Source: Nitrospiraceae bacterium
GTDB taxonomy: Bacteria; Nitrospirota; Nitrospiria; Nitrospirales; Nitrospiraceae
Direction of reading: 5' to 3'
NCBI GenBank assembly: GCA_919902505.1
Contig: CAKKRE010000002.1
Location: forward strand, 124,001-188,000
Length of the DNA: 64,000 nt
The translations under genes and the position numbers were made by a program. Positions within the stretch are counted from its first letter, which is position 1. Every line of letters starts with the position of its first letter. Positions 15,330 through 32,931 of this stretch are shown here, one piece after another. The notes under the pieces were generated by a model, which was not told the origin of the DNA, ran no database searches, and was given only the letters and a program-made list of their open reading frames with translations.

Positions 15330-17550
15330 GGCTGTACTTATCCCGGAGCCGCTGACGAATGAGTTCCGCTAACGAGTTGATGACAAATGTGACGAGGAAC
15401 AACAGCAAGGCGGCCAGGAACAACACCCGATAGAGACTGCCGCCATGCGGGGCTTCCGGAATTTCCACGGCGATATTGGCCGACAGCGTCCGAAAGCCGT
15501 TCGCCCAATTCCAATCCAGAATGGGAGTATTTCCCGTGGCCATCAGGACGATCATGGTTTCCCCGATCGCGCGCCCGAACCCGATCATCACGGCGGAAAA
15601 GATTCCTGGGCTGGCGGACAGCAACACCAGATGCAGAACGGTTTGCCAACGAGTCGCTCCCAACGCGAGCGAGCCGGCGATTTGGATCTTCGGCACATTG
15701 GAGAGCGCCTCTTCGGCAATGCTGTAGATCACCGGGACGATGGCAAATCCCATCACCATACCGACGATCAGGGCGTTGCGCTGATCGTATTGAATGCCGA
15801 GCCGGCTTGAGAGCCAGGCTTTCACGTTCCCGTCGAACCACCAGCTTTCGATGAACGAATTGGCCCAGAGGCACCCGGCGATTCCCAGTCCCAGAATAGG
15901 GATCAACAGCAAGGCTTCCTGACCGTGCGGGAGGTGTCGTTTCACGGATAACGGACAGAGGTACCAGGCGAACGAGGCCACGACAACCAGCAGAGGCAAC
16001 ACCAGCGCCATACCGGCCACCGCCGGGAGCATTCGTTCAAGGAGGGGGGCCAGCCAGAGTCCGGCAAGGAAACCGAGCACCACGGTCGGCAAGGCCGCCA
16101 TGACTTCAATAACAGGTTTAATTTTTGCGCGCAGGTCCTGATGCATGAACTGCGAGGTGCACATCGCCGCCAGAATGGCAATCGGCACCGCGAGAAACAG
16201 GGCGTACATCGTCCCTTTGAGAGTTCCGAATGCCAGCGGAAGCAGACCGAGCTTCGGCTCAACATCATCCGACCCTGAGGAGGATTGCCACACATGTGCC
16301 GGCTGATCGTACCCCTCGTACCAGACCTTGCCGAACAATGTTTCGAGCGTCACTTCAGGATAGGCATTCTGCACCTGGTACAGAGACAGTTGCCCGGCCC
16401 CGTCCAACGCGATCAACCCGTCGCCTTTCGGCGCGAACGCCACGGCGCGGATCGGAAACGCGCTGTTGGCCAGCCGCAACAACGTTTGAGAAGAGGTCGC
16501 ATGGTGCAGGAACAGATTGCCCTTCGCATCTCCGGTCACAAACCCCTTGACCCGTTGAGACGGAGCAAATGCGGTGACCGGCGCATTGTGAGCGCGGAGG
16601 GTATGGATTCGGGTCAGAGTCCAACCGGACGGGGCATTGGCGCGTCGCACAAGTCCCCAGGTCGAAACCGCACCGTCCTCAGACATGACCACCAGGCTAC
16701 GATCGCCACTCAGGAACCCCAACGTCGTGACGGCTGTCGAAGGTGCAGCGACAGTATAGGCAGCCCTCATCTCCGGCGACTCCGTCTCGGACAAGGCGAC
16801 ATGCACCACCTGTCCGTCCGCGGTTCCCACATACAGATTTTCAAGCAACGCATCCAGGGCGAGGGCCGTCACCGCACCTCTCGGTTGCGGCAGTTCCGTG
16901 ATGATGGGATGTTGACCCGCCACGTCATCCGCCGCTATGCGCACGACGAGCAGCCGGCCGCCTTTCGACACGAGGGCCAGCAGACTTTCGTGATCATTGG
17001 CCCGGTAGGCCAGCCGGACGATGGGGCTCTTCGTCAGTGGAATAGGTTGACCGGCGCGAATATGCGGGCGCTTGCGTCGCTCGCCTCGATCGGTAAATTC
17101 CGTCGTGGTGCCGACTTTCAAGAACAGGACTTCGCCGTCGGCTGTGCCCACGGCCATCCGTGGAGCATTGCCGCCACCGGACGCCATCGCCGTGATCCGG
17201 CGGGCCTTCACCTGCGCCGGCATGTCCAACGGGATGGGTTGGCCCGATGCCAGGTCGAAGAACTGGATGGCTCCGGATGTAAACACCTGCGCGATCTCAC
17301 GATGTTCATCGACCGCCACCTGAGCCGGGCCTTCATCCACAAGCAGGGCAGGCACGCTCAGGCGTTGAGTCAACTTCGCGCTCGGCGCGGTGAACAACGG
17401 GGTGACTTCGCGAAACAGAAAGAAGAAGATCCCGAGAATGCTGACGATGGTCGCGAGCCCACCGACGGTAATAATGGCTCGGGCGAGCCGATCGAGCAAT
17501 GTTCGGAGATGCACAGGCCTCGGCATCAGTCGGAATCGCTCCGTGATCAT
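15322..17550 (-). CDS. pstC: Phosphate ABC transporter permease PstC with beta-propeller insertion
   Basis: The second permease subunit, 742 aa. A first membrane helix (near residues 22-45) is followed by about 350 residues with repeated beta-strand blades (VAVDEHREIAQVF, ALALDALLENLYVGTADGQ, TAFAPSQRVKGFVTGD, AVAFAPKGDGLIALD) resembling a WD40-like propeller. The C-terminal 330 residues contain the permease helices and EAA loop EEALSNVPKIQIAGSLALGA. It overlaps pstS by one base (TAATG) and pstA by 8 bp. What the propeller binds is unknown; long PstC proteins occur in other phyla. Confidence 0.92.
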   Translation of the reverse strand: MITERFRLMPRPVHLRTLLDRLARAIITVGGLATIVSILGIFFFLFREVTPLFTAPSAKLTQRLSVPALLVDEGPAQVAVDEHREIAQVFTSGAIQFFDLASGQPIPLDMPAQVKARRITAMASGGGNAPRMAVGTADGEVLFLKVGTTTEFTDRGERRKRPHIRAGQPIPLTKSPIVRLAYRANDHESLLALVSKGGRLLVVRIAADDVAGQHPIITELPQPRGAVTALALDALLENLYVGTADGQVVHVALSETESPEMRAAYTVAAPSTAVTTLGFLSGDRSLVVMSEDGAVSTWGLVRRANAPSGWTLTRIHTLRAHNAPVTAFAPSQRVKGFVTGDAKGNLFLHHATSSQTLLRLANSAFPIRAVAFAPKGDGLIALDGAGQLSLYQVQNAYPEVTLETLFGKVWYEGYDQPAHVWQSSSGSDDVEPKLGLLPLAFGTLKGTMYALFLAVPIAILAAMCTSQFMHQDLRAKIKPVIEVMAALPTVVLGFLAGLWLAPLLERMLPAVAGMALVLPLLVVVASFAWYLCPLSVKRHLPHGQEALLLIPILGLGIAGCLWANSFIESWWFDGNVKAWLSSRLGIQYDQRNALIVGMVMGFAIVPVIYSIAEEALSNVPKIQIAGSLALGATRWQTVLHLVLLSASPGIFSAVMIGFGRAIGETMIVLMATGNTPILDWNWANGFRTLSANIAVEIPEAPHGGSLYRVLFLAALLLFLVTFVINSLAELIRQRLRDKYSHG

Positions 17551-18569
17551 TACCGGATCTGGCTCAGCTGCTTCTCAGCCAAGGTGGCATCGACCGGGAA
17601 GTAGCCATCCCTCAGCACGTCGGATTGCCCCTCCCTGCTGTATACGTAGGCAAGAAACTCTTTCACGATGGGGGAGAGTGGTTTTCCCGGAGCCTGATTC
17701 ACATAGATGTACAAGTATCGCCAGAGCGGATACGTGCCGTTCCTCGTGTTCGCCTGGGTGGGTTCGATGAACGGTTGGCCGGCCTTCGCCGCCAACGGAA
17801 GCATTTTCACTCCGGACGTGCTATAGCCGATCCCGCTGTACCCGATGCCGTATCGATCTTCGCTGATCCCTTGCACCACCGAGGCAGAGCCCGGCTGTTC
17901 CTTCACTTGATCCTTGAAGTCGCCATTCTTGAGGGCGTGCTCCTTGAAGAATCCGTATGTGCCGGAAGCTGAATTGCGGCCGTAGAGACTGACAGGCGCA
18001 GCGGCCCAGTCGCCGGTCAAGCCGAGTTGTCCCCACTTGTTCAGGTCGACGGCATGGCCCTGCCTCCGGGACTTGGAAAACAGCGCATCCGCCTCCGCGA
18101 CCGTGAGCCCCTTGATCGGATTGTCCTTATTGACGAAAAGCGCCAAGGCATCCACCGCGACAGGGTAGGCAGTCGGCGGGTACCCGAACTTCGTTTCGAA
18201 TGCATCGATCTCGCTCGACTTCATCGTCCGCGACATGGGACCGAGTTGAGCCGTATTTTCAATGAGCGCAGGCGGTGCCGTGCTGGACCCCTTGCCCTCG
18301 ACTTGAATTTTCACATTGGGATATTGCTTCCGGAATCCTTCGGCCCACAGCGTGATCAGGTTGTTCAGGGTATCGGAACCGATGCTGTTGATCGTTCCGG
18401 AGACGCCACTGACCTTCTGATACGGTCGTAAGGACGTGTCCGCTCCCGCTGCCTGCCTTACGCAGGTCGACGGCATTACAATCAGAGCGTACAGCAGCGA
18501 GAACACCAGGATGGTCGTCCTCGGATGCCCGTTTTCCAATTCGTGCCCGGCATTCGACTCATGACGCAT
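17550..18569 (-). CDS. pstS: Periplasmic phosphate-binding protein PstS (first copy)
   Basis: Captures phosphate and delivers it to PstCAB. It shows [59 protein letters not shown] and [18 protein letters not shown], the phosphate-binding loops of PstS. A hydrophobic N-terminal signal segment ([16 protein letters not shown]) is present. ATG 18569 is selected over TTG 18593 because AAGGAG lies just upstream. A Pho-box-like repeat (18634-18650) precedes it. A second, divergent PstS is at 22259-23425. Confidence 0.93.
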
Positions 18570-18633
18570 GTCAGACTCCTTCTTTTCCTGCAATGCAATG
18601 TAGGGAAGAGAGATTTCAGGATGATCGACACCG

Positions 18634-18650
18634 CATTAAGATCCGGTTAA
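18634..18650 (-). promoter_or_regulatory. Pho-box-like repeat upstream of the pstSCAB operon
   Basis: On the minus strand, TTAACC (18650-18645) and TTAATG (18639-18634) are spaced exactly 11 bp start to start, about 65 bp before the pstS start codon. Spacing and sequence match the 11-bp-phased direct repeats bound by PhoB/PhoP/SphR-type regulators. Confidence 0.6.
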
Positions 18651-18820
18651 CTCTGATGACGGAAGACACAGCATGCTGCTTCAGATTGTTGCGCTGGATC
18701 CGTGCCGGTCCCGACAAGTCGCACGCGCTTCGGACTCATTCGCGGGCACGCAGGGGATGCGAAACTAGGCCGTGATCGGCACCTGAATCGGCGGTTGCCG
18801 CATCCCTCGCATGAGAGCGC

Positions 18821-19033
18821 TCAGATGGGCGGACTGCATCCCACGAGGCCCTTCTGATGAACCCATCGGAGCAGCTTCAATCGGGTGTTGATGCCCAGCT
18901 TCTGGAACAGATTGGTCAAATGATGGCGGACGGTGATGGTAGAGATGTGGAGGCGGTCGGCAATGTCTTTGTTGGACAGGCCTTGTCCGACCAACAGGGC
19001 GATCTCCTGTTCGCGTTCGCTCACTGGACACAT
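18821..19033 (-). CDS. Stand-alone LuxR/GerE-type HTH protein
   Basis: A 70-residue protein consisting almost only of a LuxR-type DNA-binding domain: VSEREQEIALLVGQGLSNKD, then IADRLHISTITVRHHLTNLF and QKLGINTRLKLL. No receiver or ligand domain is fused, and none is visible in the preceding 30 bp. ATG 19033 is given; GTG 19024 is an alternative that would place AGGAAGG at a better distance (9 nt). It lies between the pst operon and a DUF2934 gene on the same strand. It may be a small regulator or the surviving end of a larger one. Confidence 0.65.
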   Translation of the reverse strand: MCPVSEREQEIALLVGQGLSNKDIADRLHISTITVRHHLTNLFQKLGINTRLKLLRWVHQKGLVGCSPPI

Positions 19034-19066
19034 CCTTCCTGCCTGTGTCTACCGACTACTGCCTCG

Positions 19067-19384
19067 TTACGCATAGGATGAAGCCGAACGGCGATTGAGG
19101 CCATCTTGCCTCGTGGCTGCGGATTGTGAGAGCGTCAACCGTTCGGCCTCCAGCCAATCCTGGCGATCGTGTCCATCCTGCCGTCCCCGGCGCTGATACA
19201 GCTCATAGGCCAGTTTCTCAATACGTATCCTGATCTCCTCGGCCTCCGCCGCTGCCCTGCCGGCGGCTGATTTGGGTCGCCGGACACGGACCGGCCGTGG
19301 TCGATCAGACGTCTTCTCGACCGCCTTGGATGGGCTACCTTTCTGCTTATTGTCTGCGCTTGACTTGATCCGTCGTTGTGCCAT
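19067..19384 (-). CDS. DUF2934-domain protein
   Basis: A 105-aa basic protein. The C-terminal half contains IRIEKLAYELYQRRGRQDGH followed by DRQDWLEAERL, the DUF2934 signature. The N-terminal half is Lys/Arg/Ser-rich and probably disordered. AGGAGA lies 8 nt before ATG 19384. Function is unknown; DUF2934 proteins are common in Nitrospira and related environmental bacteria. The LuxR-type gene follows 33 bp downstream on the same strand, so the two may be co-transcribed. Confidence 0.75.
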   Translation of the reverse strand: MAQRRIKSSADNKQKGSPSKAVEKTSDRPRPVRVRRPKSAAGRAAAEAEEIRIRIEKLAYELYQRRGRQDGHDRQDWLEAERLTLSQSAATRQDGLNRRSASSYA

Positions 19385-19602
19385 CGCTGAATCTCCTGGT
19401 TGCATCGAACTGAACCTTCCCCCTTCCGACAGAGACGCATCACGTGGACAATATGCACGACAAGGGGTTGTCGAGATTCTCCCGGAACCGTTCCGCGATA
19501 CGGATGGTGAGGACGCGGAGTCGCTGGCCGTTCGGGGGCGCCTATGGGCAAGAGCCTCACCCAGGACTCTGTGTTGCAGTCAGGCCGGTCCTCTGGCTGT
19601 CC

Positions 19603-19773
19603 TTACAGGGGATCGGCTCGCGCGGACTCGTTGTCTTGCGCAAGGTCAGAAGACGCGCCTGATCCGGCGCTCACGAGGTGAATCGTCATGAACGGACCCA
19701 AGACCGTAAGGGTGAGGTTGGCGCTGCCTTGCTCCGAGGGCAGGGGCGTACGACTATTGCTCCATGAAAACAT
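19603..19773 (-). CDS. Possible small protein of unknown function
   Basis: A 56-aa frame beginning MFSWSNSRTPLPSEQG with GGAGGAG about 6 nt before ATG 19773. It contains one hydrophobic stretch (LTLTVLGPFMTIHLV) and an acidic tail. I do not recognise it. A competing plus-strand frame (19688-19879) also has a plausible ribosome site, so at most one is likely real. Confidence 0.25.
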   Translation of the reverse strand: MFSWSNSRTPLPSEQGSANLTLTVLGPFMTIHLVSAGSGASSDLAQDNESARADPL

Positions 19774-19838
19774 CTCGCTCTCCTCCATGTTGGGAGGCCA
19801 GCATAGGGGCGTGACATTTCATGAGAGTCACCGTTTCT

Positions 19839-19855
19839 TTAACATTCGGTTAAGC
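19839..19855 (+). promoter_or_regulatory. Pho-box-like repeat upstream of the 19991 response regulator
   Basis: TTAACA (19839-19844) and TTAAGC (19850-19855) are spaced 11 bp. They are followed about 18 bp later by an AT-rich GATTATTTT (19869-19877) that could act as a -10 region. The start codon is 136 bp further downstream, implying a long leader. Confidence 0.55.
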
Positions 19856-19990
19856 CGGACCATTCCTGGATTATTTTGAGTCAGCCGTATGCGCTGCGGC
19901 GAACGTCGCCCGGGCTGTGGCTGTCGAAGTAACCTCTTCACAATGCGGCCTTGAGGAAGACGAAACAGGTCAACTGTAGGGTCCGTTGCG

Positions 19991-20695
19991 ATGGGTTCTA
20001 CGATCGTCCAAATCATCGAAGACGAGCCGCTCCACGCCGATCTGTTGAACCGCGCCTTGCGCCAGGCTCAATTCGCGACGACGCTTGCCGCGGATGGTGA
20101 GAGTGGATGGCGTGACGCGCAGCGACTACTGCCTTCGTTGATTCTGCTCGATCTCATGCTGCCGGGTCTGAGCGGCCATGAGGTCTGTCGCTTGGTGCGA
20201 CGCACACCGTCCACACGCCATATTCCGATCATCATGCTGACGGCCGTTGGAGCAGAAGCAGACCGTATTGCCGGCCTTGAAATGGGAGCAGACGACTACG
20301 TGGTGAAGCCGTTCAGCCCGCGGGAAGTCGTGTCCCGCGTTCAGGCCGTGCTGCGCAGAGTCCATGAGACACGTCGTGAGGATCCTGTTCTGTTTTCCGA
20401 TACCTCCATCACCATGGAGGGGCCGTACTTCGTCCTGTCCTTGCAGGAACGGCACATCACCGTCTCGAACACAGAACTGAGGCTGCTTCAGTATCTGCTG
20501 ACCCGGGATGGGGAATTAGTGCGCGGCGATGAATTGTTGAATCTTCCAGGCGAGGAGCTCGGGAGCACGAACAGAGAAGAACTTGAGCACCGCGTGCGCT
20601 TTCTTCGACGAAAGCTGGAGAACAGCGGGACGGGATCGATTGAGATATTGCCGGGGTCTCGCTATCGCTTCCTGGCACATCCGAAGCCGACCTGA
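19991..20695 (+). CDS. Response regulator, OmpR-like, orphan
   Basis: A 234-aa two-domain regulator. The receiver is complete: acidic residues in IIEDEP, Asp in LILLDLMLPGLSG, Thr in IIMLTAVG, Lys in YVVKPFS. The C-terminus is a divergent winged helix (ITVSNTELRLLQYLLTRDGE, REELEHRVRFLRRKLE, SRYRFL). It resembles the 8032-8754 regulator. No sensor kinase is encoded nearby. A Pho-box-like repeat upstream suggests that it belongs to, and may control, the phosphate-starvation response; if so it is a candidate PhoB. Confidence 0.8.
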   Translation: MGSTIVQIIEDEPLHADLLNRALRQAQFATTLAADGESGWRDAQRLLPSLILLDLMLPGLSGHEVCRLVRRTPSTRHIPIIMLTAVGAEADRIAGLEMGADDYVVKPFSPREVVSRVQAVLRRVHETRREDPVLFSDTSITMEGPYFVLSLQERHITVSNTELRLLQYLLTRDGELVRGDELLNLPGEELGSTNREELEHRVRFLRRKLENSGTGSIEILPGSRYRFLAHPKPT

Positions 20696-20793
20696 CACAT
20701 CCAGCCGGAATACCGCCGCATCCGGGAAGCTCGGGCGCTCAACCGCTACAACCCGCGAAAACACCCTTCCTGCCTGCCTATCCTGCCGCGATC

Positions 20794-20814
20794 ACGGGTA
20801 CCTCCGATACCCGT
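20794..20814. other. Small hairpin between convergent genes
   Basis: ACGGGTA (20794-20800) and TACCCGT (20808-20814) form a 7-bp stem with a 7-nt loop between the convergent response-regulator and winged-helix genes. There is no T-run, so it is at best a weak bidirectional terminator. Confidence 0.3.
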
Positions 20815-20824
20815 CAGGCAAGGA

Positions 20825-21064
20825 TCAGCCGACGCAGGCTAAGACCCGCGCCTTCGACGATATCCGTTCGATCTCGTACTCGAAACCTCGTCGAAGCAGG
20901 ATGATCTCTCCGCGCCGGCTCAGCTCGTCGACGGTCTTAAAAACCTGGTTCCAACTGAGCTCCGGCAGCAGGGTCACGACCTGTTCAAGCGTCAGTGACT
21001 TTCGCAGGTATAAAAGATCGAGAATCAGACCTTCGCTGGTGGGGGAAATGGCTGGATGCACCAT
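20825..21064 (-). CDS. Small winged-helix-like protein
   Basis: A 79-aa protein, nearly all predicted helix-turn-helix with a wing: SEGLILDLLYLRKSLTLEQV, then PELSWNQVFKTVDELSRRGE and IILLRRGFEYEIERI. The shape resembles MarR- or ArsR-like folds, but I cannot assign a family. AGGAGG lies 6 nt before ATG 21064, a near-ideal ribosome site. Three 11-bp-phased Pho-box-like hexamers lie upstream (21174-21201), so this may be a phosphate-responsive DNA-binding accessory protein. Confidence 0.7.
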   Translation of the reverse strand: MVHPAISPTSEGLILDLLYLRKSLTLEQVVTLLPELSWNQVFKTVDELSRRGEIILLRRGFEYEIERISSKARVLACVG

Positions 21065-21173
21065 GGCGCGCCTCCTGGTTGGATTGATTCACTCACCCGA
21101 ATCGCAGACTCGGGCAACCGTGGATCGAACGAGCAGAGACAGGAATCAGTATGAGGACATCGTGTATCTCTGA

Positions 21174-21201
21174 AATCAACCTCACTTCAATTCTCCGTTA
21201 A
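21174..21201 (-). promoter_or_regulatory. Pho-box-like triple repeat upstream of the winged-helix gene
   Basis: On the minus strand TTAACG (21201-21196), TTGAAG (21190-21185) and TTGATT (21179-21174) recur every 11 bp. The first is a good match, the others weaker. The gene starts 110 bp downstream at 21064. Confidence 0.45.
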
Positions 21202-21225
21202 CTCGCTTGTGGGATCACCTCACCG

Positions 21226-21735
21226 CTAAATCTCTTCGCGGCCGCAGAAAGATCCTCTCGCGGTTCCGTCGCCCTGCGCCGGGGAACAACGCACCGCCAC
21301 CACTCGAATCGCCCCGAGCGCCAGGAGAATGGCTCCGAGCGAGAGCAGCTTCCTGTAGTCCGCATCCTTGAACCAGAGAGAAATGATTTCCGTCAGCATG
21401 ACCACGAGAATCGTATCGACGATGAAGGTGACTTTAACGCGGCCTTCTGAAAAATAGGTCAGCGTGGTCTTGAACACTTCCACCACCGCGAGAAGGATCA
21501 GCGTATCGACGATGATCTGGCGCAGCCCGATTTCAACCGGCACATCGAACAACAGCCGGATATCCAGGAAGGTCTTGATCACCCCGCCGGTCAGGGCGAT
21601 GAGGATCGTCAGAATGAGCAGGCTGAGGACTGCCTTGATTCCTTTCATCCAGAGTTCGGTGAGATCGGTGTCGATGGCACGCCCAATGAAATCCGAAAGG
21701 CGATGGACTCGAGGATCTGAATTCATGAACGTCAT
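21226..21735 (-). CDS. psiE: PsiE-family phosphate-starvation-inducible membrane protein
   Basis: A 169-aa membrane protein with four hydrophobic segments (GIKAVLSLLILTILIALTGG, LRQIIVDTLILLAVVEVFKT, FIVDTILVVMLTEIISLWF, LSLGAILLALGAIRVVAV). The IVDTLILLAVVEVFKT and VDTILVVMLTEI regions fit the PsiE family, whose biochemical role is unknown. AAGGAG precedes ATG 21735. A 38-codon membrane-protein gene lies 53 bp upstream on the same strand, and a Pho-box-like repeat precedes both. The polar C-terminal tail (RCSPAQGDGTARGSF) is unusual. Confidence 0.72.
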   Translation of the reverse strand: MTFMNSDPRVHRLSDFIGRAIDTDLTELWMKGIKAVLSLLILTILIALTGGVIKTFLDIRLLFDVPVEIGLRQIIVDTLILLAVVEVFKTTLTYFSEGRVKVTFIVDTILVVMLTEIISLWFKDADYRKLLSLGAILLALGAIRVVAVRCSPAQGDGTARGSFCGREEI

Positions 21736-21788
21736 TCGCAGAAACTCCTTGTTGTGAGGATACGCTTCATACCGGACACGATGCGCTA

Positions 21789-21905
21789 TTAGTCATATTT
21801 GATCATGATGGACCACAGGCCAATAAAAAGCCCGACGAGTACGAGCATGGCGAGGTGAAACGCGTCGTTTGAGGACGATGACATCAAGAAGTCGGCAGCG
21901 AGCAT
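21789..21905 (-). CDS. 38-aa single-span membrane protein
   Basis: Begins MLAADFLMSSSSNDAFH and continues into one hydrophobic segment (AMLVLVGLFIGLWSIMI) ending KYD. AGGAGGG sits 7 nt before ATG 21905, an excellent ribosome site, the main reason to believe so short a gene. It lies immediately upstream of psiE on the same strand and downstream of a Pho-box-like repeat (22002-22018), so it is probably the first gene of that transcript. I recognise no family. It could be a small accessory subunit of the PsiE-like protein. Confidence 0.65.
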   Translation of the reverse strand: MLAADFLMSSSSNDAFHLAMLVLVGLFIGLWSIMIKYD

Positions 21906-22001
21906 TAGCAACCCTCCTGGTTAGGAATAAGCATGGTACCCATCGAAGCCCCCACTCTCGATCGACTATATCGAGGCGCTGTTCCGGGAAGATCACTGCT
22001 T

Positions 22002-22018
22002 GGTTACGGCATTGTTAC
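22002..22018 (-). promoter_or_regulatory. Pho-box-like repeat upstream of the small-protein/psiE pair
   Basis: On the minus strand GTAACA (22018-22013) and GTAACC (22007-22002) are spaced 11 bp, about 100 bp before the 38-codon gene. The hexamer GTAACA also occurs at the sites at 26987-26992 and 28487-28492. Confidence 0.5.
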
Positions 22019-22117
22019 TTCCGGCAAAGCCTGAGGTTCTGAGCTATCGGAACAACATCGAACGCCCAACCTCATGACGGTGTTCGGTTCGCACCCTGTC
22101 CGCAGGAGGATCAAGAG

Positions 22118-22145
22118 TTAACAAGGAGTTAACATCTCGCTAATA
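22118..22145 (+). promoter_or_regulatory. Pho-box-like triple repeat upstream of the second pstS
   Basis: TTAACA (22118-22123), TTAACA (22129-22134) and CTAATA (22140-22145) recur every 11 bp. The first two are identical. This is the clearest example in the window. The pstS-like gene begins 113 bp downstream. Confidence 0.7.
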
Positions 22146-22258
22146 GGCCAGCAACTCCCTTCCCGTATCCTGGCGACAATGAAAGACCACATCTGTTTCC
22201 TACTCGTGATTAGAACAACTCAGTCTGGGCATTCATCACTTTTCTACGGAGGCGCTAT

Positions 22259-23425
22259 ATGACACGACAGCAGCAGACAGGTTCCAGCCATCACCGTGGC
22301 GCTCGTTCAGTTTTTACCGCGCTGGCCACCGCCGCCGCGCTGTCCTTATTCGCTGGTTATGCCGGAGCGGAGCATGCGGGTCTTAGCGGTGCTGGAGGGC
22401 CGACGGTCGATCCCGCAATTGAACCCTACACCAATCATAATGGGTTACATGGCAAGCTGAGTATTGCCGGATCGGACACCATGAGACCGTTGATCTCGAA
22501 GTTGGCGGCGCAATTCTTGAGCCTCCACCCAGGGGCGCAGATCGCGGTGGAAGGCACGGGATCGACTGCGGCTATCCGGGAATTCTTGTTGGGCCTGTCG
22601 TACCAACGCCGCGGGGACAAAGTGCAAAGTCGAGGAACGGCGGGATCCAACACGGTGGAGTTGCTCGCGTCGTCTCGGCAACTGACCGAAGATGAACAGA
22701 AGGGATTTGAATCCAACTATGGCTATCAGGCGCTCGAAGTGCCGATCGCGATGGATGCCGTCGCCATCTATGTGCACAAAGACAACCCTATTCAACGGTT
22801 GACGTTGACGCAAATCGACGGAATCTTCGGAAAAGATCACAAGCGGGGACAGGCCGCGATTAACAATTGGAGCCAGGTCGGATTGTTGGATGCACCACTG
22901 GCGCAACAACCTATTCATCCATACGGCCGTGACAAGCGATCCGGTACCAGAGAATTCTTCAAGCATGTCGCCCTTAAGGATGGAGACCTGATCGACACGG
23001 TTATGGAACAACCGGGGTCCGCTTCCGAAATCATTGCGATTGCCCAAGATTCTTTGGCGGTAGGATATGCAGGGGCCGGATTCAGCATTTCCGATGTCCG
23101 TCAAGTGCCGATCGCCACGCAGCCGGATCAGACGGCATATTTGCCTTCAGTGGATACGGTCACTTCCGGCACCTATCCATTGGGTCGTTCCCTCTATCTC
23201 TACGTGAAGAAGAATCCCAAGGAAAAATTGGACCCGTTTGTGGCGGAGTTTCTCTCATTTGTGAACAGCCGGCAGGGACAAGAGACGGTGGCACGGGCAA
23301 GTTTCTATCCGTTGACTCGCGCTCAAGTCGCAAAAAACCTGCAGGATTTGGGTCTTCTGAAAGGGGCGATGGTCGGCACACCTGCTAAGAACGAGCTGCA
23401 AGTCGCCGAGCAGATGACCCGCTAA
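22259..23425 (+). CDS. Periplasmic phosphate-binding protein, PstS-like (second copy)
   Basis: A 388-aa PstS/SphX-type binding protein. Signal peptide: basic start, then VFTALATAAALSLFAGYAGA with likely cleavage after AGA. Phosphate-binding loops: KLSIAGSDTMRPLISKLAAQ, IAVEGTGSTAAIREFLLG, MDAVAIYVHKDNPIQRLT, YGRDKRSGTREFFKHVAL. GGAGG lies about 7 nt before ATG 22259. It is monocistronic, with its own Pho-box-like repeat upstream and a strong terminator downstream. No permease genes adjoin it, so it either feeds the pstCAB system at 12.8-17.6 kb or acts as a phosphate scavenger or sensor. Confidence 0.88.
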   Translation: MTRQQQTGSSHHRGARSVFTALATAAALSLFAGYAGAEHAGLSGAGGPTVDPAIEPYTNHNGLHGKLSIAGSDTMRPLISKLAAQFLSLHPGAQIAVEGTGSTAAIREFLLGLSYQRRGDKVQSRGTAGSNTVELLASSRQLTEDEQKGFESNYGYQALEVPIAMDAVAIYVHKDNPIQRLTLTQIDGIFGKDHKRGQAAINNWSQVGLLDAPLAQQPIHPYGRDKRSGTREFFKHVALKDGDLIDTVMEQPGSASEIIAIAQDSLAVGYAGAGFSISDVRQVPIATQPDQTAYLPSVDTVTSGTYPLGRSLYLYVKKNPKEKLDPFVAEFLSFVNSRQGQETVARASFYPLTRAQVAKNLQDLGLLKGAMVGTPAKNELQVAEQMTR

Positions 23426-23461
23426 AGGCGTTTGCCAAGCCCCTTGCTGGCCACCCATACC

Positions 23462-23500
23462 GAGGAGCGTCCTTCGAAAGAAAGGACGCTCCTCTTTTTT
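23462..23500 (+). terminator. Rho-independent terminator after the second pstS
   Basis: A perfect 13-bp stem (23462-23474 with 23482-23494), a 7-nt loop and six Ts. It ends the pstS-like transcript 37 bp after the stop codon. Confidence 0.92.
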
Positions 23501-23602
23501 GCTCAGGTCTGCTAGCATGGACTGCCTCTGTTCGCGAGGAAGACTTTCGTATGAACCTATTATCGCCCCTCGTTGCATGAGGCATTCGGCGGAGGTGAAT
23601 CG

Positions 23603-24298
23603 ATGAAAAGCGCACTTGTCCGGACTCTGCTCTGTTCCACGGCGATCGTAGTGACCCTTCAGATCGGCTGCAGCAGCCCACCGCCGCCGCGAACGTCCTA
23701 TCAAGACCCTATTACATCGATCCGCCTCTACGTCGATGAGCGTGCCGACGCCGGACACAGCCATCCTGGCCAGGTCACGGCTGACCAAATGGCTAGAGTT
23801 CTGCACGGGATCCGGGTCGTACCTCGGACGGGATTCATCGGCTCGCTGATCACCGGGCAAACGCAGACGAACCCGGCTTTTTCATCCAGTGAAATCCAAA
23901 TCCTCGCACCCAGATTGAGTCGTGCCCTGTCGGAAGCCACCCCCCAAGAGCTGGTCACATTTTACCGTCGTTTCTCCGACGCGAGCGTCGGCCTGGCGAT
24001 CACCTCCGGCGGCATGTTTGTCCAAGACAGTCATCTGTTTGTGGTGCTGGCCAACAACCGGACACTACCGACCGACGGCATGAATCAAAACATGGTCACC
24101 GATTTCGATCCGATCGATAGTCCCCTCGTTCCCATTTCCCGGACAAGCTTTCGTGTGGAATTCGTCCCTTCGACAGCTCTAGTCCCTGAAGATCAACGTC
24201 CGTCCTGGCCCTACATCGACGAAGGACGAATCTTGGCGATCGATCTGCAGCAACTCGACCGCGACAAGAAGTCTGCGCCACCGGCTGCTAAACCCTAG
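23603..24298 (+). CDS. Putative lipoprotein of unknown function
   Basis: A 231-aa exported protein with signal sequence MKSALVRTLLCSTAIVVTLQ and a Cys after IG that could be lipidated, although the lipobox (LQIGC) is off consensus. The rest is a mixed alpha/beta domain with ISIRLYVDE-like strands and no catalytic motif that I recognise. ATG 23603 is chosen for GGAGGTGA 4 nt upstream; an in-frame start at 23573 lacks one. The gene follows the pstS terminator. Its TAG stop codon (24296-24298) is the outer end of the palindromic repeat 24293-24478. Confidence 0.65.
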   Translation: MKSALVRTLLCSTAIVVTLQIGCSSPPPPRTSYQDPITSIRLYVDERADAGHSHPGQVTADQMARVLHGIRVVPRTGFIGSLITGQTQTNPAFSSSEIQILAPRLSRALSEATPQELVTFYRRFSDASVGLAITSGGMFVQDSHLFVVLANNRTLPTDGMNQNMVTDFDPIDSPLVPISRTSFRVEFVPSTALVPEDQRPSWPYIDEGRILAIDLQQLDRDKKSAPPAAKP

Positions 24299-24478
24299 CC
24301 CGGACTATTCATGAATGCCTGCTCCGTCGTCCGATCCTCTCGCCCGGCGTGGCTGTTCTCGTTCGGTCTCCTCGACGGACTTGCAAGTAGGCCTACGTCG
24401 ACCTCGCTTGCGAGAAGCCCCGGCGGACTTCGGTCTCAAACACCTCGTGACGGCATTCATGAATAATCCGGACTAGGG
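24293..24478. repeat. Palindromic repeat, family 1, divergent copy
   Basis: Ends are near-perfect inverted copies: CCCTAG-CCCGGACTATTCATGAA on the left, and its reverse complement with two changes on the right (TTCATGAATAATCCGGA-CTAGGG). The interior has a GTAGGCCTAC palindrome but otherwise differs from the two closer copies at 24857-25052 and 38569-38763. The TAG of the left end is the stop codon of the lipoprotein gene. Confidence 0.75.
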
Positions 24479-24607
24479 ATAGGCTTTTTTAGTCAGCAGT
24501 TCGGAAGGACGGGATTCGTCACTCACTGGCCTTTGAACGAGCAACGGGCAGTCGACTGACGAGCTCTCTTGTTGAGCACCCCGCTGTGACGTCTGGTTTA
24601 CCCGTTA

Positions 24608-24732
24608 GCAGGATGCGGAAAAAGTCCGCCAGCGGCGTTCTCGCGGCGTTCAGAGGCTCACCGTACGGCGCGAGTACGATTCACCTCTTCGCGTGCTGCG
24701 GCCTTGCTGGACGGCCTTTTTGCGCATCCTGC
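24608..24732. repeat. Palindromic repeat, family 2, copy A
   Basis: A 125-bp element with perfect 9-bp inverted ends, GCAGGATGC and GCATCCTGC. Inside are longer inverted arms (GGAAAAAGTCCGCCAGC left, matching GCTGG-CGGCCTTTTTGC on the right) and a central GTAC-loop-GTAC hairpin. TAG precedes the left end (24606-24608). A further inverted end (TTTTTCCGCAGCCCGTTAG, 24793-24811) suggests a nested or composite insertion. Related copies: 60635-60761 and 62221-62344. Confidence 0.75.
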
Positions 24733-24856
24733 AGGTTAGTGCCATACCGACACGGCGCATGAGTGGCTCGTAGGGTATTGCGCAACAATCGAGTTTTTCC
24801 GCAGCCCGTTAGACGTTCACGCCTCAATCACCGGAACAGAGCCGCCATGGCACCCC

Positions 24857-25052
24857 CTAACCCGCATTATTCATGAGCACTTCTGCTGCAATCGCCGATT
24901 CACTGCTGCGACGGGCCTTCGGCCGGCGGGCTCGCCCCTCGGCCCCTCAACGTACTGCACGAGTACGCTTCGGGGCCTCCCGGCTCCGCGCGCCGGTCTC
25001 GCAACGTGACTCGGCGATTTCACGACGAACCGTCATGAATAATGCGGGCTAA
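24857..25052. repeat. Palindromic repeat, family 1, copy 2
   Basis: About 195 bp with inverted ends CTAACCCGCATTATTCATGA and TCATGAATAATGCGGGCTAA. Inner arms ATCGCCGA-TCAC and GTGAC-TCGGCGAT pair, with a GTACT-N5-AGTAC hairpin at the centre. It closely matches the copy at 38569-38763 along its whole length. No gene adjoins it. Confidence 0.85.
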
Positions 25053-25237
25053 GCGCGCCGAGGCGTGGCTTACACTGGAAGAATCAGCGCCTCTTCCGTG
25101 CGACGTGTTCGCGACGGATGGCGAAGGGCCACAGCAAGTACTACCGTTGGATCACAGAGAGCGGGAAAGAAGGCAACGATAGGGGGGATATCTGTTCCGA
25201 AGCGTGCGACGAGCCTCGGGATTAGAAGGCATCAGGA

Positions 25238-25261
25238 AGTCCGGAGTGTATTCTCCGGACT
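25238..25261. terminator. Hairpin downstream of the porin gene
   Basis: AGTCCGGAG (25238-25246) and CTCCGGACT (25253-25261) form a 9-bp stem with a 6-nt loop, 26 bp past the porin stop codon. No T-run follows on the minus strand, so terminator function is uncertain. Confidence 0.5.
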
Positions 25262-25286
25262 CCCTTTATCTAACAGCACGACTCGG

Positions 25287-26798
25287 TTAGTTCCAGAACC
25301 ATTGCGCCTGGAATCGTAATTGGGAGTCGTCGAAGTCAGACTGTGCCCGATTGGCAACCAAGGTGCTGTTCAGACCATCCTTAAACACCCAGTCTGCCGT
25401 AAGACGGAAGTGGGTGTCGGGTTCCCACACCAAACCGAGGTTCCAAGTCCTGGATTGTCCATCCGGTGCTCCGTTCAATGACTTGAACCCGCCATAGTAC
25501 TCACCGTAGCGAACATAGGGGGTTAACATGCCGACATCGGAATAGCGCCAAGTGTAATACCCTTGGACATATCCCCCGACAAGGCTGCTTTCTTCTATAA
25601 AATTCGTCTGGGAGTTTCGTTTGGGACCGCGACCGACGGTAAATTCCGCCAAGAGTCCCCAAGGTTGCGGTGGGGTCCACACGTAGGCGGTGACACGTTG
25701 ATCTTTGATATCGCAGCCACCTTCCGAGGTCAGCGGACTGATACATCTGGCCGCACTCGAGACATTCGGCTGGCTCGCTCCCTGCACGGCAAACACTCCG
25801 TGGAAGCCGAGAACGCCGGCTTCGAGCAGTCGTCCGTTTCGGAACTGGAACGGATAGGCGAGCTTGGCTCCGATATGTTTATCGTGGTTTAACTCCAATC
25901 GATTTCTGGTTTGACCATTGTAGACCATGACGCCGAAGACACCGTAGTCGCCCGGTCCATTATGGTAGGCCGCGAGCTGTGCAAACCGCTCCTGCGCGAT
26001 TTTCGGGCTCCAGTAATAGGCCACACCCAGATCTCGTTCTCCCGGTGCACCGCTTTGCACCGATTCGTGCCGATCCATTTCCTGACGGTTGGTGCTCGAT
26101 CGGTAGGTATCGAAGGAGTTGGGGACACGATGGAGCCCCCATCGAATCCGGTGCTCCTTGTCCTTAGTGATATAGAAGTCTGAGTAGGCGTCGATGATTT
26201 CTCTGTTCGATAGTTCCTGTTGTCCGCCCTCCAAAGCGAACTGGGTGAAAAACGCCACGCGTTCAGACACCTGACCTTGGAAGACCAGGCGAAGCCGTCG
26301 GGCATAGAATTCGTTCCCCTGTTGATCGCCGAAGCTATCGTTCAAGGGCAAATCAAACCGTCTATTCGTCGCGCCCATGTTGTATCTGAACTGCATATAA
26401 CCGGTGACGCGAATGCGCTCGTACCAACGGGGATTACCCGCCATCTGCAATTCTGCCGACTGCTCAAAAATACGGCGTTCTTCTTCGGCCTTGAGGCGTA
26501 TCCAGTCTTCCTGAGTAATCACACCCTTCTCGAGTAAGAGACTTTCGAGTGAGGTACTCTGGATCGAAAGGCGTTGCCCTGAGGTTTCCCGATCGACGTT
26601 GTTCGCAGTGGGTATGACTTGGGGCGCAACCTCCATGGAGGAGATCGCGTCACTCGATTGAACAGACCCCTGAGCGAACAACCGCGGCACAGGCTCCTTC
26701 GAACCGGCCGACACCTGCAGCGGCAGCAGCGCCAGAGCCCCGCCGATGCAGAGCGTCACCGCAGACCATTTCAGAACATAGAATCCACCGTACGTCAT
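25287..26798 (-). CDS. Phosphate-selective porin, OprP/OprO type
   Basis: Outer-membrane porin of 503 aa. After a signal peptide (VTLCIGGALALLPLQVSA) comes a short coiled-coil-like region (SLESLLLEKGVITQEDWIRL) and then a barrel with OprP-like strands: RIRVTGYMQFRYNMG, EFYARRLRLVFQGQV, HRIRWGLHRVPNSFDTYRSS, RLTADWVFKDGLNS. It probably admits phosphate across the outer membrane. The AGGAGGG ribosome site lies just before ATG 26798. A multi-copy Pho-box-like repeat precedes it, and it is divergent from a PhoB-like regulator gene. Family assignment rests on pattern, so other anions are possible. Confidence 0.78.
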   Translation of the reverse strand: MTYGGFYVLKWSAVTLCIGGALALLPLQVSAGSKEPVPRLFAQGSVQSSDAISSMEVAPQVIPTANNVDRETSGQRLSIQSTSLESLLLEKGVITQEDWIRLKAEEERRIFEQSAELQMAGNPRWYERIRVTGYMQFRYNMGATNRRFDLPLNDSFGDQQGNEFYARRLRLVFQGQVSERVAFFTQFALEGGQQELSNREIIDAYSDFYITKDKEHRIRWGLHRVPNSFDTYRSSTNRQEMDRHESVQSGAPGERDLGVAYYWSPKIAQERFAQLAAYHNGPGDYGVFGVMVYNGQTRNRLELNHDKHIGAKLAYPFQFRNGRLLEAGVLGFHGVFAVQGASQPNVSSAARCISPLTSEGGCDIKDQRVTAYVWTPPQPWGLLAEFTVGRGPKRNSQTNFIEESSLVGGYVQGYYTWRYSDVGMLTPYVRYGEYYGGFKSLNGAPDGQSRTWNLGLVWEPDTHFRLTADWVFKDGLNSTLVANRAQSDFDDSQLRFQAQWFWN

Positions 26799-26916
26799 TC
26801 ATCCCTCCTCATAGTGTGATGCTGTTACCCGTTCGGGCCATGACCTGTGCCCACAGTACAAATGATGAAGCCAAACGATTTCACGCCAGGAGTATCCCTC
26901 GGCTTCGTGACGTACC

Positions 26917-26944
26917 TGTCACCGACGTATTAAGACTCTGTAAA
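26917..26944 (-). promoter_or_regulatory. Pho-box-like repeat upstream of the porin gene
   Basis: On the minus strand TTTACA (26944-26939), TTAATA (26933-26928) and GTGACA (26922-26917) recur every 11 bp; a weaker CGCACA lies one step further upstream. The porin starts about 120 bp downstream. Confidence 0.6.
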
Positions 26945-26975
26945 CACAATGTGCGAATGTTCAGCGGCGAGAAAA

Positions 26976-27003
26976 TTTACACACATGTAACAGGCTGATT
27001 ACT
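26976..27003 (+). promoter_or_regulatory. Pho-box-like repeat upstream of the PhoB-like gene
   Basis: TTTACA (26976-26981), GTAACA (26987-26992) and ATTACT (26998-27003) recur every 11 bp. The site lies 32 bp from the porin's site and points the other way, making a compact divergent control region. The gene starts 51 bp downstream. Confidence 0.6.
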
Positions 27004-27053
27004 CCGCAACAATCGCTTGCCCGTATGGTGCGACATCAGTGCATGGAGGGTTC

Positions 27054-27749
27054 ATGAACACAGCCGGCATAAAGAAGCCTCTCCTTCTCGTAAGCGGCGA
27101 CCATGTTTCGTCAGGCTCTCTAGCCAAACTGCTCGAGACCAACGGCTACGATATTCGCGTGGCGGCAACACTGACGTCCGCACTGAGCGAAATCCGGCGG
27201 CACTCCCCGGTGCTGATTCTTGTGGATCGACGAACCCTCGCCGAAGAAGCCGGACGCCGGGACCAGTTCCCTCTTGCCATCCCGATCATCGTCCTGCAGC
27301 CATTCGACAAGTCCTGCGGCGAGGATGAATGCCTCACCGAGCTGGACGCCGGATACGACCTTGTGTTCTGTTCCCCCCACTACCGTGAACTCCTCGCGCA
27401 TATCCGGGCGATACTTCGTCGACACAACCTGCCATCGGCAGCTCCATCTGTTCTCCGCGTCGAAGGCCTCGCGATGGATACGGCCCGCCATGAAGTGACG
27501 GTCGGGGGGGTGCACGTCGAACTCACACCGAAAGAATTTCGCATCCTCCATCAATTTCTCCTCTCACCGGGAGTCGTGCTGTCGAGGCAAGATCTGCTCA
27601 ATCGCGTCTGGGGGGAGGACTATGCCCTTGAAGAACATGCGTTGGATGTCCACATCCATTCGTTGCGCCAGAAAATCGAAGCAGACCCTTCCAGACCGAT
27701 TTTCATCGTGACAATTCGCGGAGTCGGATACAAACTTCAGAGTCCCTGA
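27054..27749 (+). CDS. PhoB/OmpR-like regulator with degenerate receiver
   Basis: A 231-aa protein. The C-terminal winged helix is intact and typical (VHVELTPKEFRILHQFLL, VLSRQDLLNRVWGEDYALEE, HALDVHIHSLRQKIE, IVTIRGVGYKL). The N-terminal receiver has lost key residues: the acidic pair is reduced (LLLVSGDHV), the Thr position reads VLQPFDK, and the invariant Lys is replaced (LVFCSPHY). The central Asp may remain (LILVDRR). It is therefore probably not controlled by ordinary phosphorylation. GGAGG precedes ATG 27054. It is divergent from the porin gene and has its own Pho-box-like repeat. Confidence 0.82.
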   Translation: MNTAGIKKPLLLVSGDHVSSGSLAKLLETNGYDIRVAATLTSALSEIRRHSPVLILVDRRTLAEEAGRRDQFPLAIPIIVLQPFDKSCGEDECLTELDAGYDLVFCSPHYRELLAHIRAILRRHNLPSAAPSVLRVEGLAMDTARHEVTVGGVHVELTPKEFRILHQFLLSPGVVLSRQDLLNRVWGEDYALEEHALDVHIHSLRQKIEADPSRPIFIVTIRGVGYKLQSP

Positions 27750-27787
27750 CCGTTTTCTTCCGGCTCTCTCTTTCCCGTACACCACTT

Positions 27788-27849
27788 ATGTTGCCGCGGG
27801 CCGCTGCCAAGTTCACTCCGATGAGAGAGTGAACGGGTACAGGCAACAT
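27788..27849. other. Nested inverted repeat downstream of the PhoB-like gene
   Basis: Outer arms ATGTTGCC (27788-27795) and GGCAACAT (27842-27849) enclose inner arms GTTCACTC (27811-27818) and GAGTGAAC (27827-27834), all perfect. It sits between convergent genes and could be a bidirectional stop, a structured RNA or a protein-binding site. There is no T-run. Confidence 0.5.
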
Positions 27850-27986
27850 GTCCCCGAATGGGCAGAGGGGTGGCGAGTGCGTCGCCGGGGCAGGGGAGAA
27901 ATCAGGCTATGTATGAGGAAATGGGAAGGGTCGGCCTGCTCAGACCTGACAGACCGTCGATGGACAGGCAGCGATGCGGTGGCGAG

Positions 27987-28370
27987 TTAAAACTCGTCCA
28001 CCGACACCGGCTGCAACAGATCCCGTACCGAAAGAACCCCGACGATCGCGCCGCTCTTCAAGACACCCAGATGGCGGGTGTGGTGATGTTGCATGAGATC
28101 GGCCGCTTCCGTGATCGAACGCCGCTCATCCAAGCTGATGACGGGGCTGCTCATGATGGATTCCACGGGAACAAAATGCACCGGCCTGTTTTCACCCACG
28201 ACTTTTCGCACGATATCGGACTCGGTCACGATGCCGACCACACGGTCGTTCTGCTCGATAAACACGCTGCCGACATGGCGCTCGTTCATCACTCTGGCTG
28301 CGTCCGCCGCCGAAGTGCCGGCCGGCACCGTCACCAGCTTCTTCGTCATGAGCTCACTGACTGTCACCAT
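27987..28370 (-). CDS. CBS-domain-pair protein
   Basis: A 127-aa protein made of two CBS domains: VSELMTKKLVTVPAGTSAAD to DRVVGIVTESDIVRKVV, then VESIMSSPVISLDERRSITE to GVLSVRDLL. Such pairs bind adenine nucleotides and act as energy or ligand sensors. Starting at ATG 28370 gives MVTVSELMTKK, with AAGGAGG 7 nt upstream. No effector domain is fused. A three-copy Pho-box-like repeat upstream (28465-28492) suggests control by phosphate, unexpected for this family. Confidence 0.85.
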   Translation of the reverse strand: MVTVSELMTKKLVTVPAGTSAADAARVMNERHVGSVFIEQNDRVVGIVTESDIVRKVVGENRPVHFVPVESIMSSPVISLDERRSITEAADLMQHHHTRHLGVLKSGAIVGVLSVRDLLQPVSVDEF

Positions 28371-28464
28371 ACTGTATCCTCCTTGTTGAATGTGTCTCAT
28401 CGGCGGCTGTCTCTCACCTTGCCGATGCTCTAACAGGGAGCATAATCCTGCTACGTTCCAGGAC

Positions 28465-28492
28465 GGTTAGGCGACCGTAAATTCTCTGTTAC
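28465..28492 (-). promoter_or_regulatory. Pho-box-like triple repeat upstream of the CBS gene
   Basis: On the minus strand GTAACA (28492-28487), TTTACG (28481-28476) and CTAACC (28470-28465) recur every 11 bp, about 95 bp before the start codon. Confidence 0.55.
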
Positions 28493-28582
28493 GAATGGGC
28501 TCGAAGTGGACTGCGAGGAGGACAGGCGCGGCACAGGCGAGGATCGCCCGTGCCGTACCCTGAGAGAAATGCCGGGGAACGA

Positions 28583-29158
28583 CTACTCTTTCACTACGAA
28601 GTGGACACTGCGGTTCTTCTGCCAGCAGACCGGATTGTGCTGAAGACACAACGGCCGGTCTTTTCCGTAACTGGTCGTATCGACCTGGAGCTGACTCATG
28701 CCCAACGATTCGAGGTACCGTTTCACGGAGAGGGCTCGCCGTTCACCCAACACCAGATTGTATTCGGAAGTCCCGACTTCGTCGCAACGGCCTTCCAGCA
28801 ACACTTTGGTCACCCGGTTGTCTTTCAACCGCTTGGCATTGGCTTCGACCGCCGTGAGCGCATCGTCCCGCAGGACGTATTGGTCAAAATCAAACAGCAC
28901 ATCGGGGAACGGAATGTTCTGCTCCCCGGTCGCATTTCGCGCGGCCATCTCCACCGATCGTAACGGCACCGGAGCCGGTTCCGGCGGGGCGGGGATTTCC
29001 TGTACCGGAGCCGCAGCCACACGCTCCTCCGCGCGGGGCTTCGGTGGAGTCGCCGTCACTCCGCCACTGGTTCCCGATTTGCTCGCGCAGCCGTCAAGAA
29101 ACAGGGGGCCGGCGACGGCAAGCAATCCGAGCAGGACAAACGGGCGCAAACGTATCAT
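28583..29158 (-). CDS. OmpA/Pal-family peptidoglycan-associated lipoprotein
   Basis: A 191-aa outer-membrane lipoprotein: signal peptide with lipobox LDGC, a Pro/Ala-rich linker, then an OmpA-like domain (DVLFDFDQYVLRDDALTAVE, KVLLEGRCDEVGTSEYNLVL, GERRALSVKRYLESLG) that binds peptidoglycan. GGAGG lies 6 nt before ATG 29158. No tol genes are adjacent, so assignment as the true Pal is uncertain. Three Cys occur near the C-terminus and in the domain (GRCDE, PLCLQ, PVCWQ), two of which are unusual for the family. Confidence 0.8.
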   Translation of the reverse strand: MIRLRPFVLLGLLAVAGPLFLDGCASKSGTSGGVTATPPKPRAEERVAAAPVQEIPAPPEPAPVPLRSVEMAARNATGEQNIPFPDVLFDFDQYVLRDDALTAVEANAKRLKDNRVTKVLLEGRCDEVGTSEYNLVLGERRALSVKRYLESLGMSQLQVDTTSYGKDRPLCLQHNPVCWQKNRSVHFVVKE

Positions 29159-32200: not shown

Positions 32201-32931
32201 GCATCCAGCGTGGTGCGGACCATCGTGAGCGTGTGGGGATCCTTTGTGCGGTGATAACAATGGAGCAACAGCGAGAGGCCGGTGGCAGGTGGAAACTTCG
32301 GGGCGCCGCCGAATCCTCCCAGCTTGGCATCGAAGTCCTCCGCAAACTGGGTCACGGCCATGTCGAGTTCGGCTTCGCCGACCGTGGTCGGGGAAGGGGC
32401 GTGACTGCCGTCCTGCAGGCGCGCGGTGAGCGTGGCCGCTTGCGCGACGACGCCGGCGTGGTCCTTCTCCCAGTACTCGGCAATTTTCTTCAGCAGGGTG
32501 GGGAAGCCCGGACGGCCCCATCGATCCTCCGGCGGAAAATAGGTTCCGGCAAAAAACGGTTTCTGATCGGGGGTGAGAAACACGGTCATCGGCCAGCCGC
32601 CCTGATTCCGGTTCAGCGCCAGCGTGGCCTGCATGTAGATCTCATCAAGATCGGGCCGCTCTTCGCGATCGACTTTGATGCAGACGAAATGTTGATTCAT
32701 CAGCCGGGCGATCGCCTCGTTCTCAAACGATTCCCGCTCCATGACGTGACACCAATGGCAGGAGGAATACCCGATGGAGAGCAGAATCGGTCGATTCAGC
32801 TTCGCCGCCTGGCCCAAGGCCTCCGGCCCCCAGGGATACCAATCCACCGGGTTATAGGCATGTTGCAGGAGATAGGGACTGGTCTGCTGTATGAGGCGAT
32901 TCGGCTTGCGGCCGGCGGTGGTGCTGGTCAT
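29233..32931 (-). CDS. Fusion of a DUF255/YyaL thioredoxin-like protein and an aldo/keto reductase
   Basis: A single 1232-codon frame. Residues 1-700 are the DUF255 (YyaL/spermatogenesis-associated protein 20-like) architecture: a thioredoxin-like domain with C58 and C61 in [14 protein letters not shown], an alpha/alpha barrel, and the C-terminal [16 protein letters not shown] linker of about 40 residues follows. Residues about 745-1230 are an aldo/keto reductase ([10 protein letters not shown]) whose D/Y/K/H tetrad appears as [19 protein letters not shown] and CLLHNPE. The two families are normally separate proteins. No frameshift or internal stop marks the joint. The substrates are unknown. 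Confidence 0.85.

Follow-up and report, generated by a model that had tools for sequence, protein, structure and literature searches.

A Conserved 38-Codon Membrane Protein Gene between a Predicted Pho-Type Promoter and psiE in Nitrospira

RESULTS

Gene content of the psiE locus

This work describes a small gene located directly upstream of psiE within a 64-kb stretch of Nitrospiraceae DNA (referred to here as the window). The features around which the analysis is built, all given in window coordinates, are listed below.

20825..21064, minus strand: gene for a 79-aa winged-helix protein, third in the run (model pLDDT, 81.7; best PDB match, E = 1.2e-3)
21226..21735, minus strand: psiE, 169 aa (Pfam PsiE, PF06146; E = 2.6e-11)
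21789..21905, minus strand: small membrane protein gene, 38 codons (ATG start, AGGAGG ribosome site, one predicted span)
21962..22025, minus strand: predicted Pho-type promoter of the small gene and psiE (half-sites GTAAC / GTAAC / GTGA / GGAACA, 11 bp apart, then 9 bp and TATAGT)
22118..22145, plus strand: predicted second Pho box, three 11-bp repeats (TTAACAAGGAG TTAACATCTCG CTAATA), directed toward the divergent pstS-like gene
22259..23425, plus strand: divergent pstS-like gene (TIGR02136, 178 bits, below the model cutoff; PF12849)

The psiE product matches PF06146, the family of Escherichia coli PsiE, at 44.2 bits over residues 36 to 146 (gathering cutoff, 23.9) and is thus a member; the small protein is not itself a PsiE. 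A structural model of PsiE, calculated from an alignment of five close sequences only, reached a mean pLDDT of 47.9 and was too poor for a fold search. For the 79-aa protein, the PDB matches are MarR/ArsR/BlaI-like regulators, and no Pfam family scored above its cutoff. Its gene follows psiE in the same orientation in 40 of the 40 loci mapped, at a distance of 0 to 2.4 kb, and the protein is a candidate third partner of the psiE operon.

More broadly, positions 17550 to 29158 form a phosphate cluster. Pho-type boxes are predicted before the pstS1 operon, the phoB-like regulator, the small gene and psiE, and the pstS-like gene, with weak boxes before RR2, the PF07396 phosphate porin, and the CBS-domain gene. 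The CBS-domain gene itself lies at 27987 to 28400, at a distance of 6 kb from psiE; the porin and pstS-like genes fall in between. Adjacent to the cluster, a minus-strand frame of 1,232 aa (29233 to 32931) encodes what we take by eye to be a thioredoxin-domain YyaL-like protein joined to an aldo/keto reductase.

The small gene encodes MLAADFLMSSSSNDAFHLAMLVLVGLFIGLWSIMIKYD (38 aa), and its stop codon is separated from the psiE start by 53 nt. A prior reading of the window (the sequence-only reading) had credited the frame with a near-perfect ribosome site and one membrane span. Both descriptions are accurate: AGGAGG precedes the ATG with 7 nt between, and the protein contains a single hydrophobic stretch, for which the best 17-residue Kyte-Doolittle mean is 2.53. 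Intact copies from 12 genomes all comprise 38 or 39 codons, and each has a strong ribosome site (AGGAGG, or GAGAGG in G017). Residues M20, L23, L26, W31, and S32 are kept in all of these copies. The first 14 residues carry a charge of −1 to −3 and the C-terminal end one of 0 to +2, and the predicted topology is N terminus out, C terminus in. A pair of small residues at positions 25 and 29 (small-xxx-small) occurs in 12 of 12 proteins but was discarded as evidence because 1,110 of 5,000 joint column shuffles also gave such a pair.

No Pfam or NCBIfam model matched the small protein of the window, and a PDB search with the small-protein profile returned no chain up to an E value of 10. In this respect it differs from known small membrane protein families, having neither a curated family nor a solved chain in these three resources; it represents an orphan family, absent from the family libraries searched.

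Distribution of the small gene

The protein served as the first query, and a profile built from 11 variants as the second, in a search for homologues across 175 genomes of the family, 29 of which belong to the genus of the window. The profile retrieved 12 intact homologues at E ≤ 6e-20 (the weakest at 5.4e-20 and 6.3e-20), followed by one remnant in G039 (E = 1.1e-4); the remaining matches scored 0.012 or worse and lay mostly within longer frames. All 13 genomes belong to the genus of the window, so that 12 of its 29 genomes carry the intact gene. An even draw of 395 genomes from the phylum likewise gave 12 matches at E ≤ 0.005, every one from the same genus, and neither set yielded the gene outside it. 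Conservation in relatives, which had been proposed as a check on the frame, is therefore found, yet only within one genus. On a single-gene tree built from ClpC DNA for 27 of the 29 genus genomes (omitting G044, which gave no full match, and G018, which gave a fragment only), the distribution is patchy; gains and losses were left uncounted because the tree rests on a single gene.

psiE was detected in 112 of the 175 family genomes, against 12 for the intact small gene. Every one of the 12 genomes with the small gene has an intact psiE, and in each of them the small gene lies directly upstream of a psiE copy. In 13 other genus genomes with complete upstream regions (G022, G023, G024, G026, G029, G030, G031, G032, G033, G034, G037, G038, and G041), psiE is present and the small gene absent. 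Elsewhere in the genus, a contig end truncates psiE of G018, a genome that gave no match to the small gene, while G025 and G044 have neither gene. One further genome, G088, is filed under another genus and was left out of the genus count: its contig resembles that of G041, the whole locus (L083 versus L082) being nearly the same, with equal match positions and an identical promoter, and is probably misbinned.

The divergent neighbor is a pstS-like gene in 11 of the 12 loci with the small gene; in G036, a response-regulator gene takes its place. As the pair of small gene and psiE in G036 lacks a divergent pstS-like gene, the small gene accompanies psiE rather than pstS. G031 shows the reverse arrangement, with psiE and a divergent pstS-like gene, yet no small gene. 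Outside the genus, a CBS-domain protein gene is found directly before psiE in 9 of 13 sampled loci (L098, L100, L101, and L110 to L115).

A conserved Pho-type promoter

The sequence-only reading had also noted a Pho-box-like site ahead of the frame. This site belongs to a strongly conserved predicted promoter, after which the small gene comes first and psiE second. Its four-half-site box spans 21980 to 22018, and position 22018, at which that reading had placed its right end, falls in the first half-site. Across 26 loci, the 64-nt consensus reads gTAAC-GTAA-gTgA-GGAACA at 11-bp steps, followed 9 bp on by TA.A.T; this is the layout of a Pho-type promoter, with direct half-sites at 11-bp spacing before a −10 box. 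In 12 genomes the block precedes the small gene by 64 to 151 nt (counted from GGAACA); in 14 loci without the gene (the 13 genus genomes and G088), it precedes psiE by 110 to 123 nt. The promoter stands before psiE whether or not the small gene intervenes, which makes the latter an optional leading gene of this predicted Pho-type psiE operon, known from one genus only. At the 13 loci outside the genus, a block scoring at least 14 was found upstream of the CBS-domain gene in 7 and of psiE itself in 1 (G011), with lower scores in the other 5; the Pho-type psiE operon is probably old in the family.

A promoter profile built without the genome of the window was then applied to the 64-kb window, where it scored 50.1 at 21962 to 22025. 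The next-best sites were upstream of the phoB-like gene (19991 to 20695; score, 24.5) and upstream of pstS1 (21.9), which shows recurrence of the motif before independent phosphate genes. A score of 8.5 was obtained at 19797 to 19860 on the minus strand, with no clear gene directly after. Scores of 3.0 to 3.7 before RR2, the porin, the pstS-like gene, and the CBS-domain gene fall below the best of 20 shuffled windows (6.8) and are suggestive through their position alone.

On the plus strand, a perfect TTAACA-N5-TTAACA at 22118 to 22134 reads toward the divergent pstS-like gene. With up to 2 mismatches, this pattern has 8 matches in the 64 kb versus 0.49 expected, whereas the classical E. coli Pho box pattern has none within the window at up to 3 mismatches; the local Pho box is of the TTAACA/GTAAC type. 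The conserved promoter suggests Pho control of psiE in Nitrospira. The psiE gene of E. coli was for a long time assigned to the Pho regulon; a 2023 ChIP-seq and RNA study, however, reports neither PhoB binding nor PhoB-dependent regulation (PMC10294691). The conserved Pho-type box predicted at psiE of Nitrospira stands in contrast to that argument for E. coli.

The leader between promoter and psiE was also inspected. In the 53-nt gap between the small gene and psiE, the alignment shows no conservation except for the psiE ribosome site, and folding is no better than in shuffled sequences (z = 0.16 for a 55-nt stretch and 0.26 for a 141-nt stretch). In seven genomes without the small gene (L089 to L095), the leader of about 95 nt between promoter and psiE is conserved at 80% mean identity and holds no evident gene. 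A structured RNA was considered for these leaders and rejected: a three-way junction could be drawn for the consensus of the seven, with a double change in only 1 of its 19 pairs, the single-sequence z scores range from −1.65 to 1.21 (5 of 7), and Rfam gave no match worth the name. Folding more stable than in shuffled sequences was seen for the leader of G041 (z = −2.5) and that of psiE2 in G040 (z = −2.1).

Purifying selection on the small gene beside intact and decayed psiE

Three independent close-pair contrasts gave 25 synonymous and 15 nonsynonymous changes in the small gene (P = 2.3e-7, relative to about a quarter of small-gene sites being synonymous), and its pairwise omega in close pairs is 0.05 to 0.37. 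The small gene is under purifying selection, and the 38-codon frame is a genuine gene, not a chance frame.

Two genomes, G035 (L105) and G040 (L104), carry psiE in duplicate, in the order small gene, defective psiE1, regulator gene, and intact psiE2, the last lying 1.4 to 1.6 kb beyond the pseudogene. Both psiE1 copies have a common one-base deletion; in addition, the start codon is ACG in G035, and 21 nt are deleted in G040. Between the two genomes, the dead psiE1 shows 9 synonymous and 27 nonsynonymous changes (omega, 0.99), the intact psiE2 shows 23 and 2 (omega, 0.03), and the small gene shows 7 and 2 (Fisher P = 0.006 versus psiE1). These contrasts are small (36 changes in psiE1 and 9 in the small gene), and the synonymous rate is higher in the small gene (7 of 28 sites) than in psiE1 (9 of 119), with total divergence alike. 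As the small gene is selected while psiE1 is neutral, it does not depend on the reading frame of its neighbor. In both genomes, psiE2 is preceded by a predicted promoter of its own with the layout described above (scoring 55.0 and 57.6), so that the small protein and PsiE would still be produced together.

Two other genomes show related states. In G042 (L064), the small gene precedes an intact psiE of which the 5′ end is 90 to 94% like the dead psiE1 and most of the remainder 92 to 95% like psiE2, as if recombination had rejoined psiE1 and psiE2. In G039 (L109), breaks are present in the small gene and psiE as well as in the pstS-like gene and the lipoprotein gene, while the porin and CBS-domain genes match over their full length.

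DISCUSSION

Accessory partner of PsiE

The sequence-only reading had proposed that the frame may encode a missed small subunit of an uncharacterised phosphate-starvation membrane complex. What stands of this is a real gene that comes first after the promoter, lies beside psiE in 12 of 12 genomes, and has decayed together with psiE in G039. What does not stand is an obligatory subunit, which would be present wherever psiE is functional. Because 13 genus genomes have psiE and lack the small gene, PsiE does not need the small protein; in G035 and G040, moreover, the small gene was kept while psiE1 died. CydX and KdpF, for example, are small single-span subunits of membrane complexes and are encoded alongside the large subunit in one operon; the small gene resembles them in its single span and operon placement. 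They differ in that CydX- and KdpF-type subunits accompany their complexes much more regularly, whereas the small gene occurs in under half of the psiE-containing genomes of the genus.

Our leading reading, which we hold tentatively, is that the small protein is an accessory single-span partner of PsiE, made from the same Pho-induced transcript and stabilizing or tuning PsiE. When phosphate is short, a PhoB-type regulator would bind the four-half-site box at 21980 to 22018. One transcript would then run through the small gene and psiE and probably also include the gene for the 79-aa winged-helix protein. The 38- to 39-aa product would insert as one helix, with its negative N terminus outside and its K/R-bearing C terminus inside, and its conserved core (F16..M20..L23..(G/A)25..L26..(G/A)29..W31-S32) would pack against PsiE. 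As an accessory, nonessential partner, it would then stabilize PsiE or tune its activity. Pho control, the single transcript, and the topology are what we infer from the sequence; contact between the small protein and PsiE is a guess.

Alternative explanations

The main rival is a role in the Pho response independent of PsiE. The small protein may be a Pho-induced membrane protein that has another Pho membrane protein as its target (the Pst permease, a sensor kinase, or a phosphate symporter). It could, for instance, modulate that target in a feedback loop and would merely share the promoter of psiE. This is a serious possibility: the small gene is selected beside a psiE pseudogene, psiE is common without it, and nearly all its loci are divergent from a pstS-like gene. 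There is also precedent in MgtS, a protein of 31 aa that acts on the phosphate transporter PitA, as described in the part of PMC10710835 cited here. However, the small gene is never found away from psiE, even in G036, where the pstS-like gene is missing, and every genome that has it retains an intact psiE. As an intact second psiE with its own predicted Pho-type promoter lies nearby in G035 and G040, action on PsiE in trans remains most likely.

We consider it improbable that the frame is a leader peptide, the translation of which controls psiE expression without yielding a working protein. It is a short frame just upstream of psiE and presumably on the same transcript, but selection acts on the amino acids of a membrane span that has its own strong ribosome site, the gap to psiE shows neither conservation beyond the psiE ribosome site nor folding above that of shuffled sequences, and the gene is conserved beside the broken psiE1. 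Still less probable is a membrane-acting toxin of a type I toxin-antitoxin pair, which the small size and hydrophobicity of the peptide would fit. Its stable place before psiE and the conserved Pho-type promoter argue against a toxin, as does, weakly, a simple scan of 20700 to 22400 that found no sigma-70-like promoter on either strand (0.8 expected). A chance frame in the psiE leader has a negligible probability: the frame has only 38 codons and no family model matches it, but the profile matches in 12 genomes, the low omega, the fixed length of 38 to 39 aa, and the ribosome site all speak for a gene.

Relation to known systems and implications

In size, single span, predicted membership of a stress regulon, and a short, easily missed gene, the small protein resembles MgtS, which acts on MgtA as well as PitA, and AcrZ (49 aa), which acts on AcrB, as far as these are described in the part of PMC10710835 cited here. 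No sequence relation to either was found, and the small gene differs from them in sharing an operon with its candidate partner. Within the portions considered of the psiE literature searched, including PMC10294691 and PMC4415409, no small partner of PsiE was found, and the literature searched held no paper naming both Nitrospira and psiE.

A broader and more speculative reading, which we regard as unlikely at present, concerns the interval between this widespread Pho-type promoter and psiE, which may be an evolutionary slot for PsiE regulators. Across much of the family a CBS-domain protein would fill the slot; part of one genus would instead have a newly born 38- to 39-aa membrane protein there, and the remainder nothing. 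On this view, the small protein would serve as a replacement regulator restricted to one lineage, acting on PsiE in trans and travelling between species together with psiE through recombination.

We know of no biochemical function for PsiE. Its name refers to phosphate starvation, and PMC10294691 calls Pho control of the E. coli gene into question. The present work adds a small-protein gene in Nitrospira, a nitrifier genus that includes “Candidatus Nitrospira defluvii” (FP929003.1). Kept by selection even beside a dead psiE copy, the gene provides a genetic handle, as genomes with it, without it, with psiE duplicated, and with the genes decayed all occur naturally. If true, the slot reading would give a first handle on what PsiE does.
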